Shown piece after piece: positions 36,347 to 45,706 of a stretch of 64,000 bases of DNA. Origin of the DNA: Micromonospora sp. M71_S20 (lineage in GTDB: Bacteria; Actinomycetota; Actinomycetes; Mycobacteriales; Micromonosporaceae); NCBI RefSeq assembly GCF_003664255.1, contig NZ_RCCV01000003.1:744001-808000 (forward strand), given 5' to 3'. The position numbers were made by a program, and so were the translations under genes. Below the pieces are notes generated by a model. The model was not told where the DNA came from. It did no database searches and saw only the letters and a list, made by a program, of their open reading frames with translations. Each line of letters opens with the position of its first letter. The first letter of the stretch is position 1.

Positions 36347-36514
36347 CCCGTAGCTGACGGCCGACCGACTGACCCCCGCGGGGCCCAGGCGGGCTGTTCG
36401 GCTCCCGCGATAACGCCCATCTTCCGGCCGGGTCTCGGCAGCGGATGTCGCACCGGCTGTACGCACTTGGCGGCACGAACCCGGGACGGGGCGGCTGTCC
36501 GTGCGGAATCTATG

Positions 36515-36557
36515 TCACGGACGGTAGCGTGTCGCCCGTGTTCCCTACCGTCCGTGA
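36515..36557. promoter_or_regulatory. 13-bp dyad enclosing the pucR-type start codon
   Basis: TCACGGACGGTAG (36515-36527) and CTACCGTCCGTGA (36545-36557) are perfectly complementary. The 17-nt spacer holds the GTG start at 36538, and the left arm overlaps the -10 candidate TAGCGT (36525-36530, 7 nt before GTG). As DNA it fits an autoregulatory operator; as RNA the +1 would lie inside the loop, so an RNA hairpin is less likely. Confidence 0.65.
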
Positions 36558-38463
36558 GGTCCTCGCGCTGGACCCGGTCCGCCACGGTGCTCCGCGCCTG
36601 GTCGCCGGGGACGCCGGTCTCGACCGCCCGGTGCGCTGGGTGCACGTGACCGAGGTGCCCGACATCGCCCCGCTGCTCGGCGGTGGCGAGCTGGTGCTCA
36701 CCACCGGGATCGGGCTGCCCGCCGACGACGCCGGTCTGCGCGCCTTCATCGGCGACCTGGCGGACGTGGGCGTCTCCGGCCTGGTCGTCGAGCTGGGCCG
36801 CCGGTACGTCAGCGGGGTGCCCCGGGTGATGGCCGCCGCCGCCGAGCGGCGCGGGCTGCCCCTGGTCGAGCTGCGGCGGGCCACCCCGTTCGTCCGGATC
36901 ACCGAGGCCGTGCACGCGCTGATCGTCGACGCCCAGCTGACCGAGCTGCGGGCCACGGAGGAGATCCACCAGCGCTTCACGGAGCTGTCGGTGGAGGGCG
37001 CCGGCCCCGGCGAGGTGGTGCGGCAGGCCGCCGACCTCTCCGGCTGCCCGGTGGTGCTGGAGAACCTCTCCCGGCAGGTGCTCGCGTACGACCCGGCGGG
37101 GGAGAGCGCCGAGCTGCTGCTGGACTGCTGGGAGCAGCACTCGCGGCGGATCCGGCCGGCGGGGCGGACCGCGTACGACGGCGACAACGGGTGGCTGGTG
37201 ACCACGGTGGGCGCCCGGGGGCAGGACTGGGGGCGGCTGCTGCTGCGCTGGCCCGGCGGGGGCGACCTGGCGGCGGGCCGGCGCGTGTTCGACCCCGCCG
37301 AGGAGGGCGGCGCGCCCGTCGGCGTCGCCGCGCCGCCCGTGGTCCCGCCCACCCGGTTGACCATCCTCGTCGAGCGGGCCGCCTCGACGCTGGCCCTGGG
37401 CCGGCTGATCCGGCGCGACGCCGAGGGCCTGGAGCGGCAGATCCACCGGACGCTGCTCACCGCCCTGCTCGACCACTCGCTGCCGGTGGACGAGGTCGCC
37501 CTGCGGGCCCGGGCGCTCGGCGTGGTGCTGGAGCGCCGGCACCTGGTCGGGGTGGTGGTCCGGCACCGGATCGACGACCCGGCGGGGGAGGGCGGCGCGG
37601 CCCCGGACCAGGGGCACCCGGGCGGTCCGGAGGCCGGCCCGGCGCGGCTGCGTGATCTCGCCGAGGCGGTCGGGCAGGCGTTGCACGAGGCGAAGCTGAC
37701 CGGGCTGTCCAGCGCCATCGACGACCACGCCGTCGGCGTGCTGCTCGCCCTGCCGGAGCCGGCGGCCGAGGAGCGGTCGCTGGCCGCGTTCGCCACCGCG
37801 CTGCACCGCACCCGCCCGGACACCCCCGCCCGCTCGGACGGCCATGTCCGCCCGGACGGTCATTCCCGCCTGGGCGGCTCCGCTCGTCCCGACGGCCAGG
37901 TCCGCCTGGGCGGCGCCGTCCGTGGTGACGGAGCGGCCTGGTCGGGCCCCGTCCGTGGTGACGGAGCGGCCCGGTCCAACGGCCGGGCGAACGGCGTGGC
38001 CCGGCCGGCAGGCGGCGGACTGCTCATCGCGGCCGGTTCCGGCGTGCCCGGCCTGCGGGAGGCGCGTCGGTCGCTGATCGAGGCCCGGCAGGTCGCCGAT
38101 GCCGCCCGGCGGGACCGGCGGGATCTGCCGGTCTTCCGGCTGCCGCACGTCGGGCTGGCGGGGCTGCTGCACCTGCTGCGCGACGAGCCCCGGTTGCAGA
38201 CCTTCGTCGAGCGGGAACTCGGCGCACTGCTGACCCACGACGCGCAGCACCCGCGGGAGCAGCTGCTGGGCACCCTACGGGCGTACCTGGAGCAGGGCCG
38301 CAACAAGTCGGCGGCGGCCGGGGCGGCACACCTGTCCCGACCGGCCTTCTACGAGCGGCTGGCCCGGATCCGCCGCGTCCTGGACGTGGACCTCGACTCC
38401 GTCGAGGCCTGCCTCTCCCTGCACGTGGCCCTGCTGGCCCTCGACGCCATCCGCACCCCCTGA
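36538..38463 (+). CDS. PucR family transcriptional regulator
   Basis: 641-residue regulator. N-terminal PucR domain (about 3-125; VREVLALDPV, VRWVHVTEVPDIAPLL, LVLTTGIGLP), a GAF/GGDEF-like middle, and a C-terminal HTH_30 domain (YLEQGRNKSAAAGAAHLSRPAF, then YERLARIRRVLDVDL). Family members control purine or amino-acid catabolism. GTG 36538 is chosen because TAGCGT lies 7 nt upstream; in-frame ATG 36445 lacks support. A repeat-rich, probably disordered insert (about residues 430-500) interrupts the middle domain. No target gene is adjacent. Confidence 0.85.
   Translation: MFPTVREVLALDPVRHGAPRLVAGDAGLDRPVRWVHVTEVPDIAPLLGGGELVLTTGIGLPADDAGLRAFIGDLADVGVSGLVVELGRRYVSGVPRVMAAAAERRGLPLVELRRATPFVRITEAVHALIVDAQLTELRATEEIHQRFTELSVEGAGPGEVVRQAADLSGCPVVLENLSRQVLAYDPAGESAELLLDCWEQHSRRIRPAGRTAYDGDNGWLVTTVGARGQDWGRLLLRWPGGGDLAAGRRVFDPAEEGGAPVGVAAPPVVPPTRLTILVERAASTLALGRLIRRDAEGLERQIHRTLLTALLDHSLPVDEVALRARALGVVLERRHLVGVVVRHRIDDPAGEGGAAPDQGHPGGPEAGPARLRDLAEAVGQALHEAKLTGLSSAIDDHAVGVLLALPEPAAEERSLAAFATALHRTRPDTPARSDGHVRPDGHSRLGGSARPDGQVRLGGAVRGDGAAWSGPVRGDGAARSNGRANGVARPAGGGLLIAAGSGVPGLREARRSLIEARQVADAARRDRRDLPVFRLPHVGLAGLLHLLRDEPRLQTFVERELGALLTHDAQHPREQLLGTLRAYLEQGRNKSAAAGAAHLSRPAFYERLARIRRVLDVDLDSVEACLSLHVALLALDAIRTP
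37867..37971 (+). repeat. In-frame imperfect repeats within the PucR gene
   Basis: A 23-nt unit, CCGTCCGTGGTGACGGAGCGGCC, occurs at 37916-37938 and 37949-37971 (33-nt period), and CGCCTGGGCGGC at 37867-37878 and 37903-37914 (36-nt period). Both periods preserve frame and encode RPDG/RLGG/RGDGA-type residues. Confidence 0.75.
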
Positions 38464-38658: not shown

Positions 38659-40008
38659 TCAGGTGAGGGCGGCGAGGGCCTTCGCGTAGGGCGGGGGGAC
38701 GTGGTTCGGGCCGCCCGGGGTGAAGACGTCGGAGCCGGCGGCGGCCGACCAGGCCGTGTCGGGTACGGCGTCGACGAGGGCGCGCACGACGGGGGCGTCG
38801 CGCCACTGGTCCTGCTCGGCCAGCAGGCTCAACGCCACCACGGACTCCTCCACCTCGCCGACGCACTCGAACGGCTTGTGCCCGTCCACGCCCAGCAGCT
38901 CCCGGTAGCCGGGGATCTGCGTGGGGTCGGCGAGCAGGTCGCCGCCGAAGATGTGGGTGATCCGCTCGCGCGACATGAACGGCGCCATGGCCAGGAAGAC
39001 GAACCGGCACTTCGGGCAGTCACGGCACCAGCGCTCGCTGGCGTCGCGCAGCTTGAACGCGGCGTTGCAGCTCGTCACGACGTCGTCGTAGCGGTCGATC
39101 TCGGCGAACGACCGGGCGATGTGCAGCTCCGACAGCGAGCGCAGCAGCGAGAAGTACGGCTCGGTCAGCCCGGCGTGCGCGGCCAGCGCGGCCCGCAGCA
39201 GCCCCTCCGCCTCCACGCCCTTGGACCACTGGTGGTTGATCTCGTGGCCGTTCCAGACCAGGTTCGGGTCCGACGCCGAGCGCTCGTTGGACATCACCAC
39301 CGGGCCGAGCCCGTGCAGCACCGCCGTGGCGACGGCGATCAGCGAGTTGATCGCGGTGACCGGGATGTGGCCGTTGAGCGCCCCGGCGGCGTTCAGCTCG
39401 AACAGCACCGGGTCGATGCGCCGCCGGGCGGCGAGCGGGGCCAGCCCGGACGCCTCGTTCACCGCGACGATCACGTGGTTCGGGTTGACCGAGAACGGCA
39501 CCGGGTCGAAGCCCGCCCGGCGCAGGGCCTCCAGGCTGACGATGGAGTCCTTGCCGCCGCCCACCGCGGAGAGCGGACGCCGGTCGGAGTCGTCGTACTC
39601 CCGGGCCGGGGAGACCGTGCCGGGCGGCACCTCCGGGCGCAGCTCGAGCACGTGCGGCAGCTGGTTGCGGTACGCGTACTCCGCGAGGCCCTTGGTGTAG
39701 ACGGCCGTGACCAGCTCGGTGGCGGCCGTGCCCAGCGGCGCCGGCAGCACCAGGCGGGGCGGGGCGGCGGCCTTGTAGTAGCTGACGCCGGCGACCACGT
39801 GCAGCAGTTCCAGCACCCGGCCCAGGGTCGCCACGGTCTCGTCCGACGGCGGCGCGTCCGGCAGCGGGAGGGTGACCACCTCGGTGAACCGCTGCTCGCC
39901 GTCGGGGCCGGTGAGGGCGTAGTCGAACAACACCTCCCCGGTGGAGAGGTCGATCGAGTAGGACGGGAAGGTGAAGGCGTCCATCCGCCGGAGCTGCTCG
40001 TTGGGCAC
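38659..40008 (-). CDS. murL: UDP-N-acetylmuramoyl-L-alanyl-L-glutamate epimerase, MurL-like
   Basis: 449-residue protein. MurL enzymes (first shown in Xanthomonas) use ATP to epimerise the terminal L-Glu of UDP-MurNAc-L-Ala-L-Glu to D-Glu, replacing free glutamate racemase. Visible support: MDAFTFPSYSIDLSTG at the N terminus, a PP-loop-like AVGGGKDSIVSLEAL near residue 155, VVMSNERSASDPN and a CRDCPKC cluster near 335. GTG 40008 is chosen because the upstream frame is shadow of murD2; TAGTAT is 5 nt before it. Divergent to murD2 with a 90-nt gap, the same pairing as in Xanthomonas. Alternative: a PP-loop enzyme of unknown substrate. Confidence 0.8.
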   Translation of the reverse strand: MPNEQLRRMDAFTFPSYSIDLSTGEVLFDYALTGPDGEQRFTEVVTLPLPDAPPSDETVATLGRVLELLHVVAGVSYYKAAAPPRLVLPAPLGTAATELVTAVYTKGLAEYAYRNQLPHVLELRPEVPPGTVSPAREYDDSDRRPLSAVGGGKDSIVSLEALRRAGFDPVPFSVNPNHVIVAVNEASGLAPLAARRRIDPVLFELNAAGALNGHIPVTAINSLIAVATAVLHGLGPVVMSNERSASDPNLVWNGHEINHQWSKGVEAEGLLRAALAAHAGLTEPYFSLLRSLSELHIARSFAEIDRYDDVVTSCNAAFKLRDASERWCRDCPKCRFVFLAMAPFMSRERITHIFGGDLLADPTQIPGYRELLGVDGHKPFECVGEVEESVVALSLLAEQDQWRDAPVVRALVDAVPDTAWSAAAGSDVFTPGGPNHVPPPYAKALAALT

Positions 40009-40098
40009 ACGCCATACTAGGCCCTGGTTCGTCCGGCCGTGTCCGGCTGCGCCGGACCCGCCCCTGCCCCGCCCGCCAACACCCCCTGAGGAGAGCCC

Positions 40099-41445
40099 GT
40101 GCGCCTGTCTGACCTGCGCGGACGTACCGTCGCCGTCTGGGGGGCCGGCCGGGAGGGCCGGGCCGCGGTGACCGCGATCGCCGCGCACGGCCCGGCCGAC
40201 CTGGTCGCCGTCGACGACAGCGCCAACTTCCTCAGCCTGCCCTGGGAGGGCCCGCTGGCCGAGGCGGCGCCGCTGGTCACCGGCGAGGAGGGCTTCGCCC
40301 GGCTGGCCGCCGCCGACGTGGTGGTCCGCTCGCCCGGCGTGCCGCAGACCCATCCGTGGCTGGTCGAGCTGCGCCGGCGCGGCGTGACCGTGACCCAGGG
40401 CACGGCGCTGTGGATGGCCGACCACGCCGCCCGCACCGTCGGCGTCACCGGCAGCAAGGGCAAGAGCACCACCTCCAGCCTGATCAGCCACCTGCTCGCC
40501 GCCGTGGACCGGCCGAACGTCTTCGGCGGCAACATCGGCGTGCCGACGCTGGACCTGCCGGAGGCGGAGCTGTACGTGCTGGAGCTCTCCAGCTACCAGT
40601 GCAGCGACCTGACCGACTCGCCCCGGGTCGCGGTCGTCACGGCGCTCTTCCCCGAGCACCTCGACGCGCACGGCGGCGAGCGCGAGTACTACCGGGACAA
40701 GCTCAACCTGCTCGCGCACGGGCCACGGACCGTGGTGGTCAACGGCGCCGACCCGAGGCTCGCCCTCGAACTGGGCGACCGCGCGGCGGTACGCGCCGGC
40801 CTGCCGGACACCGCGCACGTGGCCGGCGGCGCGGACGGCACGCCCTGGTTCCACCTCGGCGACCGGCCGCTGTTCCCGCGCGCGGTGCTGCCGCTGGTCG
40901 GCCGGCACAACGAGGGCAACCTCTGCGTCGCCCTCGCCGTGCTCGACGCGCTCGGCGTCGACGTGGTGGCTCGCAGGGACACCCTGGCCGTGGCGGTCGC
41001 CGAGTTCCAGGGACTCGCCCACCGGCTCACCGAGATCGCCGACCCGTCCGGTCTCACCTTCGTCGACGACACCCTCGCCACCAGCCCGTACGCGGCCATG
41101 CACGCCATCGACGCGTACGAGGGGCGACCGTTGACGGTGATCGTCGGCGGCACCGACCGGGGCCTGGACTACGCGCCGCTGCGCGAGCACCTCGCGGAGC
41201 GCGAGCTCACCGTGCTCGGCATCCCCGACAGCGGCGCCCGGATCGTCGAGGCGCTCGCCGGTTTGCCGCAGGTGCGCACCGAGGTGGTCGACGACCTGGT
41301 CGACGCCGTGCGGCTGGCCCGCGAGCTGACCCCGGCCGACGGGGTGGTGCTGCTCTCCCCGGCCGCGCCGAGCTACGGGCGGTTCCGTAACTTCGAGCAC
41401 CGCTCCGAGGTCTTCGCCCAGGCGGTACGCGACACCGCCGGCTGA
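40099..41445 (+). CDS. murD2: UDP-N-acetylmuramoyl-L-alanine--L-glutamate ligase, MurD2-like
   Basis: 448-residue Mur ligase that adds glutamate to UDP-MurNAc-L-Ala using ATP. The ATP loop is GSKGKSTTSS (about 117-126), followed by GGNIGVP, LELSSYQ and PEHLDAHGG, and LLSPAAPSYGRFRNFEHR at the end. It is a MurD homologue; adjacency to a MurL-like gene suggests the MurD2 form that accepts L-Glu. The D-Glu contact region (SPA.PSY..F..F) differs in detail from classical MurD. GAGGAG precedes the GTG. If the L-Glu assignment is wrong it is ordinary MurD, but the dcw cluster genes are absent here, arguing for a second copy. Confidence 0.8.
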   Translation: MRLSDLRGRTVAVWGAGREGRAAVTAIAAHGPADLVAVDDSANFLSLPWEGPLAEAAPLVTGEEGFARLAAADVVVRSPGVPQTHPWLVELRRRGVTVTQGTALWMADHAARTVGVTGSKGKSTTSSLISHLLAAVDRPNVFGGNIGVPTLDLPEAELYVLELSSYQCSDLTDSPRVAVVTALFPEHLDAHGGEREYYRDKLNLLAHGPRTVVVNGADPRLALELGDRAAVRAGLPDTAHVAGGADGTPWFHLGDRPLFPRAVLPLVGRHNEGNLCVALAVLDALGVDVVARRDTLAVAVAEFQGLAHRLTEIADPSGLTFVDDTLATSPYAAMHAIDAYEGRPLTVIVGGTDRGLDYAPLREHLAERELTVLGIPDSGARIVEALAGLPQVRTEVVDDLVDAVRLARELTPADGVVLLSPAAPSYGRFRNFEHRSEVFAQAVRDTAG

Positions 41446-41446
41446 C

Positions 41447-41992
41447 TCAGCCCCGGTCGGCGGGCGTCGGGTCCGGCGTGCGCGCGCCCGGCAGCCGCGC
41501 GCTGCCGTCCTCGTCCTCGGCCGTGCGCGTGCGCGGCAGCAGCGCGCTCTCGTCCTCGGCCGCCGGGTCCGGCGCGCCGGGCGCCCCGGTGGCATCGGTC
41601 GGCGGGGGCCGCTTGTCGGGCGTCCAGGCGAAGGCGAGCGCCCCGCCGACCAGGGTCAGCAGCATCCCGACCAGGAAGCCGCCCAGGTTCGAGGTCAACC
41701 AGGAGACCAGCCCGAGCAGCAGCGAGAGCACGGCGTAGAAGACCCGCTGCTGCGGAGTGGCGACCAGCAGCACCCCGCAGAGCACCAGGACGGCCGGCAC
41801 CAGGTACGCGGCCAGCCCCTGCGGCCCGACGTGCAGCAGCACCCCGAGCGGCGCGCGCAGGGTCACGAGCATCTCCGTGCCGCCGAGCGCGATCAGCACC
41901 CCGGCGGTGAACGGGCGGCCCCGCCGCCAGCGGCGCCAGCGCCCGCCGGGTCGGCGGGCGGCCGGCACCCGGTGCTGTTCTCCGGCGGTCAC
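41447..41992 (-). CDS. DUF6114 membrane protein
   Basis: 181-residue membrane protein with four hydrophobic helices (about 28-120: GVLIALGGTEMLVTLRAPL, YLVPAVLVLCGVLLVA, FYAVLSLLLGLVSWL, FLVGMLLTLVGGALAFAW) and a hydrophilic acidic tail. Its start GTG lies one base after the stop of the DUF6230 gene. DUF6230/DUF6114 pairs are a known actinobacterial combination of unknown function, likely an envelope complex. Confidence 0.75.
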   Translation of the reverse strand: MTAGEQHRVPAARRPGGRWRRWRRGRPFTAGVLIALGGTEMLVTLRAPLGVLLHVGPQGLAAYLVPAVLVLCGVLLVATPQQRVFYAVLSLLLGLVSWLTSNLGGFLVGMLLTLVGGALAFAWTPDKRPPPTDATGAPGAPDPAAEDESALLPRTRTAEDEDGSARLPGARTPDPTPADRG

Positions 41993-41993
41993 G

Positions 41994-42623
41994 TCAGCAT
42001 CCGTCGGAGGTGAACGCCATGCGCAGGTCGGGCAGGTTGAACACGGCCGCCGTGGTGGCGTAGTTGTTCTGCCGCAGGTTGGTGATGATCACCGTGTCCG
42101 ACTGCTGGGCGAAGACACCGGGGTTGCCCCGCACCCCGGGCACCTGGTCGAGGGTGCTGGCGTCCTGCCCGACGTTGATGTTCTTGAACGAGGCGTTGCC
42201 GGCGACCTCGTCACCGTCGACGACCAGGGTGCGGGCGGTGACCGGTGTTCCGCCGCCGCCCGCGGTGATCTTCAGGTAGACGCCGCCCAGGTTGATGCTC
42301 TGGCAGAGGTTCGTCAGCTCGGCCTTGTCGATCGCCGACACCATCACCAGGACCTGCCCGCCGGTGTCGCCCTGGTTGGGGCTGTCCGGAATCATGTTGT
42401 CGATGGTGGCGAACTGCTCGAAGCCCGTGCCCGTGAGCCGGTCGGCGGTGACGGTGAACGGCATGCCGGAGATGGCGAACTGCGCGCCCAGCACGCCCTG
42501 GGCGGTCAGCACGACCATGCCGGCGGCACCCGCCACGACGGTGCCCAGCGTGGCGGCGAACCGGCGCCAGCGCACGCCGCTGCGCGGCGGATCGGGTTCG
42601 ATCGGTGCGATCTGCTCCGACAT
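41994..42623 (-). CDS. DUF6230 family protein, membrane-anchored
   Basis: 209-residue protein with a single N-terminal hydrophobic anchor (about 24-47) after a short cytoplasmic head and an exported domain rich in beta strands: FAISGMPFTVTADRLTGTGFEQF, LTNLCQSINLGGVYLKITAG, ASTLDQVPGVRGNPGVFAQQ. Homologues are sometimes mislabelled cholesterol esterase. It precedes the DUF6114 gene and follows a TetR gene in the same direction; the secreted protein at 43953 is divergent. Confidence 0.75.
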   Translation of the reverse strand: MSEQIAPIEPDPPRSGVRWRRFAATLGTVVAGAAGMVVLTAQGVLGAQFAISGMPFTVTADRLTGTGFEQFATIDNMIPDSPNQGDTGGQVLVMVSAIDKAELTNLCQSINLGGVYLKITAGGGGTPVTARTLVVDGDEVAGNASFKNINVGQDASTLDQVPGVRGNPGVFAQQSDTVIITNLRQNNYATTAAVFNLPDLRMAFTSDGC

Positions 42624-42800: not shown

Positions 42801-43574
42801 TCAGGGGAGCGGGGCGGCCTCGCCGGTCGGCGCGCACGGCGCGGTCGTGCCCGGGCCGTCGGCCGGGCGTGCCAGTCGCGTCGCCCGGGCCGCGCCGTCG
42901 GTGCCGAGGAAGGGCGCGGTGGCCGCGTAGGTGAGCACCGGCAGCAGCAGGGGCAGCTCCGTCGCCCGGCCCTGGGCCACCCGGTTGCGGACGGTGGCGT
43001 GGATCCCACCGACCACGGTGGACACCAGCGCGTCGCGGTCCACGTCCGCCGTCGGGCCGGGGCCGGCGTCGGCGAAGAACCGGCGGAAGCTGCCGAGCAG
43101 GGCGTCGCGCTCCCGGCGGGCGTCCGGGCCCGCCGCGTCCACTTCGACGAGTGCCATCCGGGCGAAGGCAGGTACGCTCGCCAGCACCTCCAGCAGGGTG
43201 CGCAGTGCGGCGCGGGCGGCGTCCGACCACGCCGGTCCGGCCTCCCGGTAGGCGTCCTCCATGAGCTGCGACAGCACGGCGACGCCGTGCCGGTACGCGG
43301 CGAGGAAGGCGTCCTCCTTGCCGCTGAAGAGGGCGTAGAAGGCGGGCCGGGTCACCCCGGCGGCGTGGCAGATGTCGGTGACCCGGGCGTTGTCGTAGCC
43401 CTTCGTAGCCACCTCCCGCACGAGCCCGTCGAAGAGGCGGTCGCGCTGGGTCGCGGCCACCGCCTCGGCGGAGAGTCGGCGCGGACCACGCTTGATCGCG
43501 CGATCGGGGTCGCGGCCGGGGCGCGCGCCCGGCAGGGGCGCCGGCGCCGGATGCGGGCGGCGCTGCGTGGTCAC
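42801..43574 (-). CDS. TetR family transcriptional regulator
   Basis: 257-residue regulator with a Pro/Arg-rich head, the TetR helix-turn-helix VREVATKGYDNARVTDICHAAGVTRPAFYALFSGKEDAF (about 55-92, quoted in two halves: VREVATKGYDNARVTDI and AGVTRPAFYALF), and a variable ligand domain. GTG 43574 is chosen since GGAGAGG lies 7 nt upstream. It probably controls the DUF6230/DUF6114 genes or the divergent secreted protein. The tail after residue 230 is low complexity. Confidence 0.85.
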   Translation of the reverse strand: MTTQRRPHPAPAPLPGARPGRDPDRAIKRGPRRLSAEAVAATQRDRLFDGLVREVATKGYDNARVTDICHAAGVTRPAFYALFSGKEDAFLAAYRHGVAVLSQLMEDAYREAGPAWSDAARAALRTLLEVLASVPAFARMALVEVDAAGPDARRERDALLGSFRRFFADAGPGPTADVDRDALVSTVVGGIHATVRNRVAQGRATELPLLLPVLTYAATAPFLGTDGAARATRLARPADGPGTTAPCAPTGEAAPLP

Positions 43575-43706
43575 CGCGTCCACCTCTCCATTCGATTGAC
43601 TTTGCGACCCTCCGGGGTTTATAACTTTCTGCACGCTCAGTTGGGATCCCGTCACCATGGGTGATCTTCCGGATGGTCACCCGTCGACTCATCGAAGGAG
43701 GGCTCG

Positions 43707-43877: not shown

Positions 43878-45706
<1,829 letters not shown>

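Follow-up and report, generated by a model that had tools for sequence, protein, structure and literature searches.

The question raised by the locus described here is how the soil bacterium Micromonospora sp. M71_S20 obtains the D-glutamate (D-Glu) of its peptidoglycan. In the 64,000-nucleotide stretch of DNA that was analysed (G000:C3:744001-808000 in our notation, hereafter the window), two divergent genes encode MurL, an ATP-using epimerase, and MurD2, a MurD-family ligase, and the organism very probably builds its cell-wall D-Glu by attaching L-glutamate (L-Glu) and then epimerising it. We put at roughly 0.9 the probability that this pair is the only recognisable D-Glu route for peptidoglycan here, with MurL working by an adenylating mechanism of the QueC/QatC type. 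The route itself is already known and has been published for this genus (PMC8788868), and by sequence the pair looks like an intact member of it; at the level of the pathway, our analysis thus confirms a published route where it had been reported. The part most worth following is the fold of MurL. The pair is arranged as follows:

38659..40008, minus strand: murL, 449 residues, likely GTG start at 40008-40006, for the UDP-N-acetylmuramoyl-L-alanyl-L-glutamate epimerase
40009..40098, no strand: intergenic region of 90 bp separating the divergent murL and murD2 starts
40099..41445, plus strand: murD2, 448 residues, GTG start, for the UDP-MurNAc-L-Ala:L-glutamate ligase

The minus-strand frame of murL stays open far past the gene (the mechanical open reading frame is 978 residues long), and the GTG at 40006-40008 is the likely start because the resulting 449 residues fit the length and sequence of database protein P0001. 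The initial annotation had read the two genes as a MurL-like epimerase and a MurD-family ligase in divergent order and outside any dcw cluster, and the searches bear this out. MurL matches the NCBIfam model NF041275 with 403 bits (E = 1.1e-120, residues 7-445 of the 448 scanned) and is its single match in the source genome, while MurD2 matches TIGR01087 with 289 bits (cut-off 212); the pair, at G000:C3:782659-785445, lies ~266 kb from the dcw cluster, whose murE-to-murC frames occupy ~C3:507583-516193. The best matches of MurL are proteins of Micromonosporaceae, several of them labelled as epimerase in UniRef, and among its best 120 relatives the named ones through P0099 are from Micromonospora (another homologue set comprised the best 80 of 588). 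It is 93% identical to MCAG_01010 of Micromonospora sp. ATCC 39149, a strain named as a user of the route in the 2021 review, and 84% identical to the MurL of Salinispora tropica. The same review counts Micromonospora, Actinoplanes, Verrucosispora and Salinispora among the carriers of the route, and, in a sentence that names no Micromonospora strain, reports in vitro confirmation for the orthologues from Micromonospora sp. and from S. tropica (PMC8788868). A Pfam scan of the window MurL matched no family, though PF26298 and PF26299 were given for it and its relatives in the homologue search; PADLOC models matched none of three MurLs.

Is the ligase one that takes L-Glu? MurD2 is 29-32% identical to six canonical MurD proteins of order relatives, and residue alignment places three informative positions:

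40654..40656, plus strand: E186 (E. coli D182, X. oryzae MurD2 E197), determinant of L-Glu use
41158..41160, plus strand: R354 (E. coli K348, X. oryzae MurD2 R358), determinant of L-Glu use
41074..41076, plus strand: L326, at the position of E. coli K319

According to PMC8788868, the X. oryzae enzyme was converted from L-Glu use to D-Glu use by the changes E197D and R358K made together, and the change K319T enabled E. coli MurD to use L-Glu. The window ligase carries both published switch residues in what aligns as the L-Glu state, and L-Glu is its inferred substrate from these residues and from orthology. Both lysines, K348 and K319, are kept in all eight canonical MurD proteins of order relatives and in E. 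coli, whereas in MurL-linked ligases K319 was found in none of 115 readable sequences (L in 84, I in 30, F in 1). A tree of 68 MurD sequences (67 from hand-chosen loci plus E. coli, L148 excluded, none under the 380-residue limit) separates the 59 ligases of MurL-positive genomes from the nine canonical ones by a branch with 100/97 support; it was drawn with a midpoint root, L070 and L063 form long branches, and L120 and L131 lie nearest the canonical side.

These data bear on another possible reading of the pair, as a standard MurD that takes D-Glu and, beside it, a racemase of free glutamate or some PP-loop enzyme unrelated to MurL. TIGR01087, which the ligase passes, is indeed named for a D-glutamate ligase, and the MurL fold belongs to a superfamily of varied functions. 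Yet the ligase has the L-Glu state at both switch residues, lacks K319 and groups with those of MurL-positive genomes, and the X. oryzae orthologue showed no racemase activity (PMC8788868); moreover, QatC, QueC and TtuA, as listed by Foldseek, are only 13-19% identical to MurL, against the 93% and 84% of the two actinobacterial MurLs. We regard this explanation as very unlikely. The initial annotation had named a grouping with unrelated PP-loop enzymes as a ground for abandoning the MurL assignment; in sequence its best matches are the Micromonosporaceae proteins mentioned above, and the QueC/QatC-type fold described below explains its PP-loop motif without refuting its identity.

Whether the pair acts alone was addressed in the source genome (7.8 Mb, completeness 100% by the tool used). 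The MurI model TIGR00067 gave no match there, the same search being positive in 10 of 14 control genomes, and the window murD2 is the one match over the TIGR01087 cut-off, so that no second murD is seen. The dcw cluster comprises rsmH, a penicillin-binding protein, murE, murF, mraY, ftsW, murG and murC, and its scan showed no murD. The mraY frame ends only ~130 bp before the longest ftsW frame begins, which leaves murD absent from what we take to be its usual slot, between these two genes. No D-amino-acid transaminase was recognised either (TIGR01121, best 60.6 bits, cut-off 277): of three class-IV aminotransferases, two exceed the cut-offs of branched-chain aminotransferase models, and for the remaining one the top-scoring model, still under its cut-off, is aminodeoxychorismate lyase. 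Without MurI, a second MurD or a D-amino-acid transaminase, the pair thus stands as the sole recognised route. As a separate observation, the frame at L008 1460-2719, minus strand, has MurT (lipid II isoglutaminyl synthase) as its best match, with 144 bits against a cut-off of 800, and lies within 1 kb of the dcw rsmH frame; judging from it, D-Glu may be amidated at a later stage.

Two surveys were made, one of 248 genomes of the order (completeness at least 95%) and one of 296 genomes of the phylum, and MurL was found in 72 of the former, 43 of them from the window's genus, and in 18 of the latter; no member of the genus is among the 20 listed of the 176 order genomes without a MurL match. 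A MurI match at E ≤1e-3 occurred in 186 of the 248 order genomes (over cut-off in 164). It was present in 175 of the 176 MurL-negative genomes, always at E ≤1e-20, and in 11 of the 72 MurL-positive ones, where E ≤1e-20 was reached in three (G205, G127 and G143). MurL and a strong MurI match are therefore almost mutually exclusive in this order. Whole-route swaps were seen inside two genera: MurL and MurD2 occur without a MurI match in Mycolicibacterium grossiae (G161, locus L024), while MurI is present in the rest of its genus group as sampled, and G109 (L025), with its MurL/MurD2 pair, differs in the same way from genus group g35. This near-complete exclusion and these swaps are what the survey contributes. 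Among the named relatives of the G161 MurL are M. madagascariense and M. hodleri. A single MurD was found in each of 18 genomes checked, retaining matches at E ≤1e-40 only. In one order genome, G005 (97% complete), MurL and MurI both went unmatched at E ≤1e-3, and a canonical MurD was present.

The initial annotation had allowed that two routes would coexist if MurI and MurD were also kept. Its identification of the pair stood, supported by the switch residues in the L-Glu state; the second route is not found in this genome and was rejected for it. Coexistence does have a precedent in G205, a Pseudonocardia genome and the one plasmid-MurL host that was checked, where MurL is on a plasmid and the genome has MurI (E = 5e-65) and a canonical MurD with K348. 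Two further Micromonospora genomes combine MurL with a MurI-like racemase, at L188 5829-6734 (G143) and L189 6103-7008 (G127), scoring 93 and 91 bits (E about 1e-25), under the cut-off of 147. The G143 racemase sits with PxpA/PxpB (5-oxoprolinase subunits), an aminotransferase, a peptidase and an RpiR-type regulator, a context that looks catabolic. Given this, and the source genome's lack of a TIGR00067 match, of a second MurD and of a murD in its dcw cluster, we hold parallel MurL/MurD2 and MurI/MurD routes to be extremely improbable here.

How, then, might MurL work? The motifs that had been pointed out from the sequence alone are indeed present, AVGGGKDS at residues 148-155 and CRDCPKC at residues 328-334, and the sites that bear on this question are:

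39544..39561, minus strand: PP-loop-like motif GGGKDS, residues 150-155, aligned with SGGxDS of QueC
39007..39069, minus strand: four-cysteine site C314-x13-C328xxC331xxC334, probable zinc site, aligned with SCY..CGxCxSC of QueC
38863..38865, minus strand: C382, candidate acid/base residue, suggested by its invariance

In all 37 aligned relatives G151, G152, D154 and S155 of the loop, the four cysteines C314, C328, C331 and C334, and P379, C382, V383, G384 and E388 are invariant. The cysteine site may bind zinc, the corresponding QueC motif being described as zinc-binding (PMC13329287); C382, H214 and H259 are guesses at the acid/base residues, made from invariance. The AlphaFold model of MurL (mean predicted local distance difference test score, pLDDT, 95.6) and profile comparison, made with a negative control, group the MurL core with PP-loop enzymes of the QueC/QatC type. 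In a VIA-align structure comparison, which covers mainly MurL residues 141-428, the solved QueC and QatC structures match its fold well above the remaining entries. A search of the PDB with the single MurL sequence gave no match, and one with a MurL profile returned 12 matches, all of them weak (best E 0.008), one of them uncharacterised and one unrelated; the other ten are named enzymes that we take to be PP-loop enzymes. No paper mentioning MurL together with QueC, or with QatC, was found in open-licence PubMed Central, and this link is the new element of our analysis.

Because the MurL core has this fold, the GGGKDS loop would bind ATP, and MurL would adenylate the alpha-carboxylate of the terminal glutamate, in the way that QueC activates its own substrate's carboxylate. 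The acyl-adenylate would acidify the C-alpha proton, which would be taken off and given back on the opposite face, and water would then free the D-product and AMP. In sum, MurL would turn the terminal L-Glu into D-Glu at the expense of ATP, with AMP released, and MurE would act next. The fold supports adenylation followed by epimerisation and hydrolysis, the catalytic steps being inferred; for orthologues, both reactions, the release of AMP and the one-way direction have been shown by others (PMC8788868). We consider it likely that MurL is a carboxylate-adenylating QueC/QatC-type scaffold made into a one-way epimerase, in which the missing amine acceptor leaves room for C-alpha proton exchange and hydrolysis.

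Several findings speak against the overall reading. The NF041275 cut-off of 700 bits is not reached by the window MurL, nor in any of the 248 order or 296 phylum genomes; NF041275 is a Xanthomonadales equivalog model, its cut-off seems to delimit the Xanthomonadales branch, and we do not file the window MurL as that equivalog. In the source genome, an Asp/Glu-racemase superfamily protein (PF01177, E = 1.1e-11) is encoded at C1:3711637, between frames judged by eye to be a sugar aldolase and a beta-glucosidase; it was considered as a hidden MurI and rejected, TIGR00067 being unmatched. E182 is not universal in MurL-linked ligases, where the 115 readable sequences have E in 85, D in 28 and C in 2 at that position, and position 348 is R in 112 of 113. 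The exception, L148 from an uncultured proteobacterium, has V there and C at 182. By these counts, R348 and the absence of K319 are better markers of MurL-linked ligases than E182 is. As to the fold, just two Foldseek matches reached E 0.001, QueC itself standing at 4.6e-3, and the structural alignments with QatC and QueC show 11-14% identity. The window MurL does not match PF06508 (QueC; Pfam cut-off 22 bits), a scan of four MurLs giving one match at 13.3 bits, and we assign it not to that family but solely to a shared fold with shared motifs. A shared fold by itself proves no function.

The 2018 and 2021 reviews call the mechanism unclear, which leaves room for MurL to activate the carboxylate otherwise, for example as an acyl-phosphate, with the QueC-like fold no more than a common nucleotide-binding frame. 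AMP release by the X. oryzae enzyme, however, is what adenylation would produce (PMC8788868), and all 37 aligned relatives keep the PP-loop and cysteine motifs unchanged. This alternative seems unlikely, if less so than the two discussed above. What the fold adds is a concrete mechanism for this epimerase, whose chemistry both reviews leave open, a connection between peptidoglycan synthesis and the QueC/QatC/Cap9 group, and a set of residues for mutation.

Pairing with murD2, as a trait of the MurL family, holds in the window at 90 bp start to start, and is common elsewhere. After repeated copies of the same MurL were merged, 117 of 125 distinct MurL loci had a MurD-type gene (match threshold 60 bits) in the flank examined; the other eight had no match >60 bits, the downstream flank of L128 being incomplete, and in L038 (Catenuloplanes) MurD2 is on a different contig from MurL. 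The linked loci comprise 48 divergent, 62 tandem with MurL first, five tandem with MurD first and two convergent. Among them, divergent order was found in 48 of the 49 in which MurL shares at least 55% identity with that of the window, and tandem order with MurL first in 61 of the 68 in which it shares less; the divergent order of the window is thus the usual type among close relatives. Around the pair, none of the neighbours points to a cell-wall operon:

36445-38463, plus strand: PucR-type regulator
41447-42623, minus strand: DUF6114 and DUF6230 proteins
42801-43658, minus strand: TetR-type regulator

Two window open reading frames near the pair, 43953-44648 and 44636-45706, are without a Pfam match. 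Three further MurLs were found on Pseudonocardia plasmids:

L157 15001-16263, NZ_CP011869.1: plasmid MurL
L158 12001-13242, NZ_CP052772.1: plasmid MurL
L159 15001-16233, NZ_CP010991.1: plasmid MurL

These have 44-48% identity and no MurD2 match in the flanks examined. On all three plasmids the 3' end of the MurL gene overlaps a convergent gene of ~1300 residues, with a sigma factor further on; the large gene is annotated as WD40 in two, and Pfam scans, made for two, showed nSTAND1 and WD40.

Comparison with known systems places the window pair closely. The pairs of X. oryzae (XOO_1319/XOO_1320), Micromonospora sp. and S. tropica consist, as in the window, of the same two families encoded by adjacent genes, without a MurI match and with E and R as the two specificity residues of the ligase; position 416 of MurD2 is Y in the window protein and F in X. 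oryzae. Canonical MurD shares the Mur ligase domains with the window MurD2, which differs in the replacement of K348 and K319 and in the location of its gene outside dcw. QueC (7-cyano-7-deazaguanine synthase) has, like MurL, a PP-loop motif, a C-xn-CxxCxxC site and the core fold, and it uses ATP to activate a carboxylate. MurL, though, is about twice as long, with an additional N-terminal domain and C-terminal part, its cysteine spacing is C-x13-C rather than C-x8-C, and its published reaction joins no amine, unlike that of QueC. QatC, of the qatABCD anti-phage defence system, is the best fold match of MurL at 12-14% identity and, unlike MurL, has been proposed to act on QatB (PMC13329287); its alignment runs from MurL residue 8 to residue 413, so that the N-terminal part of MurL may also be common to the two.
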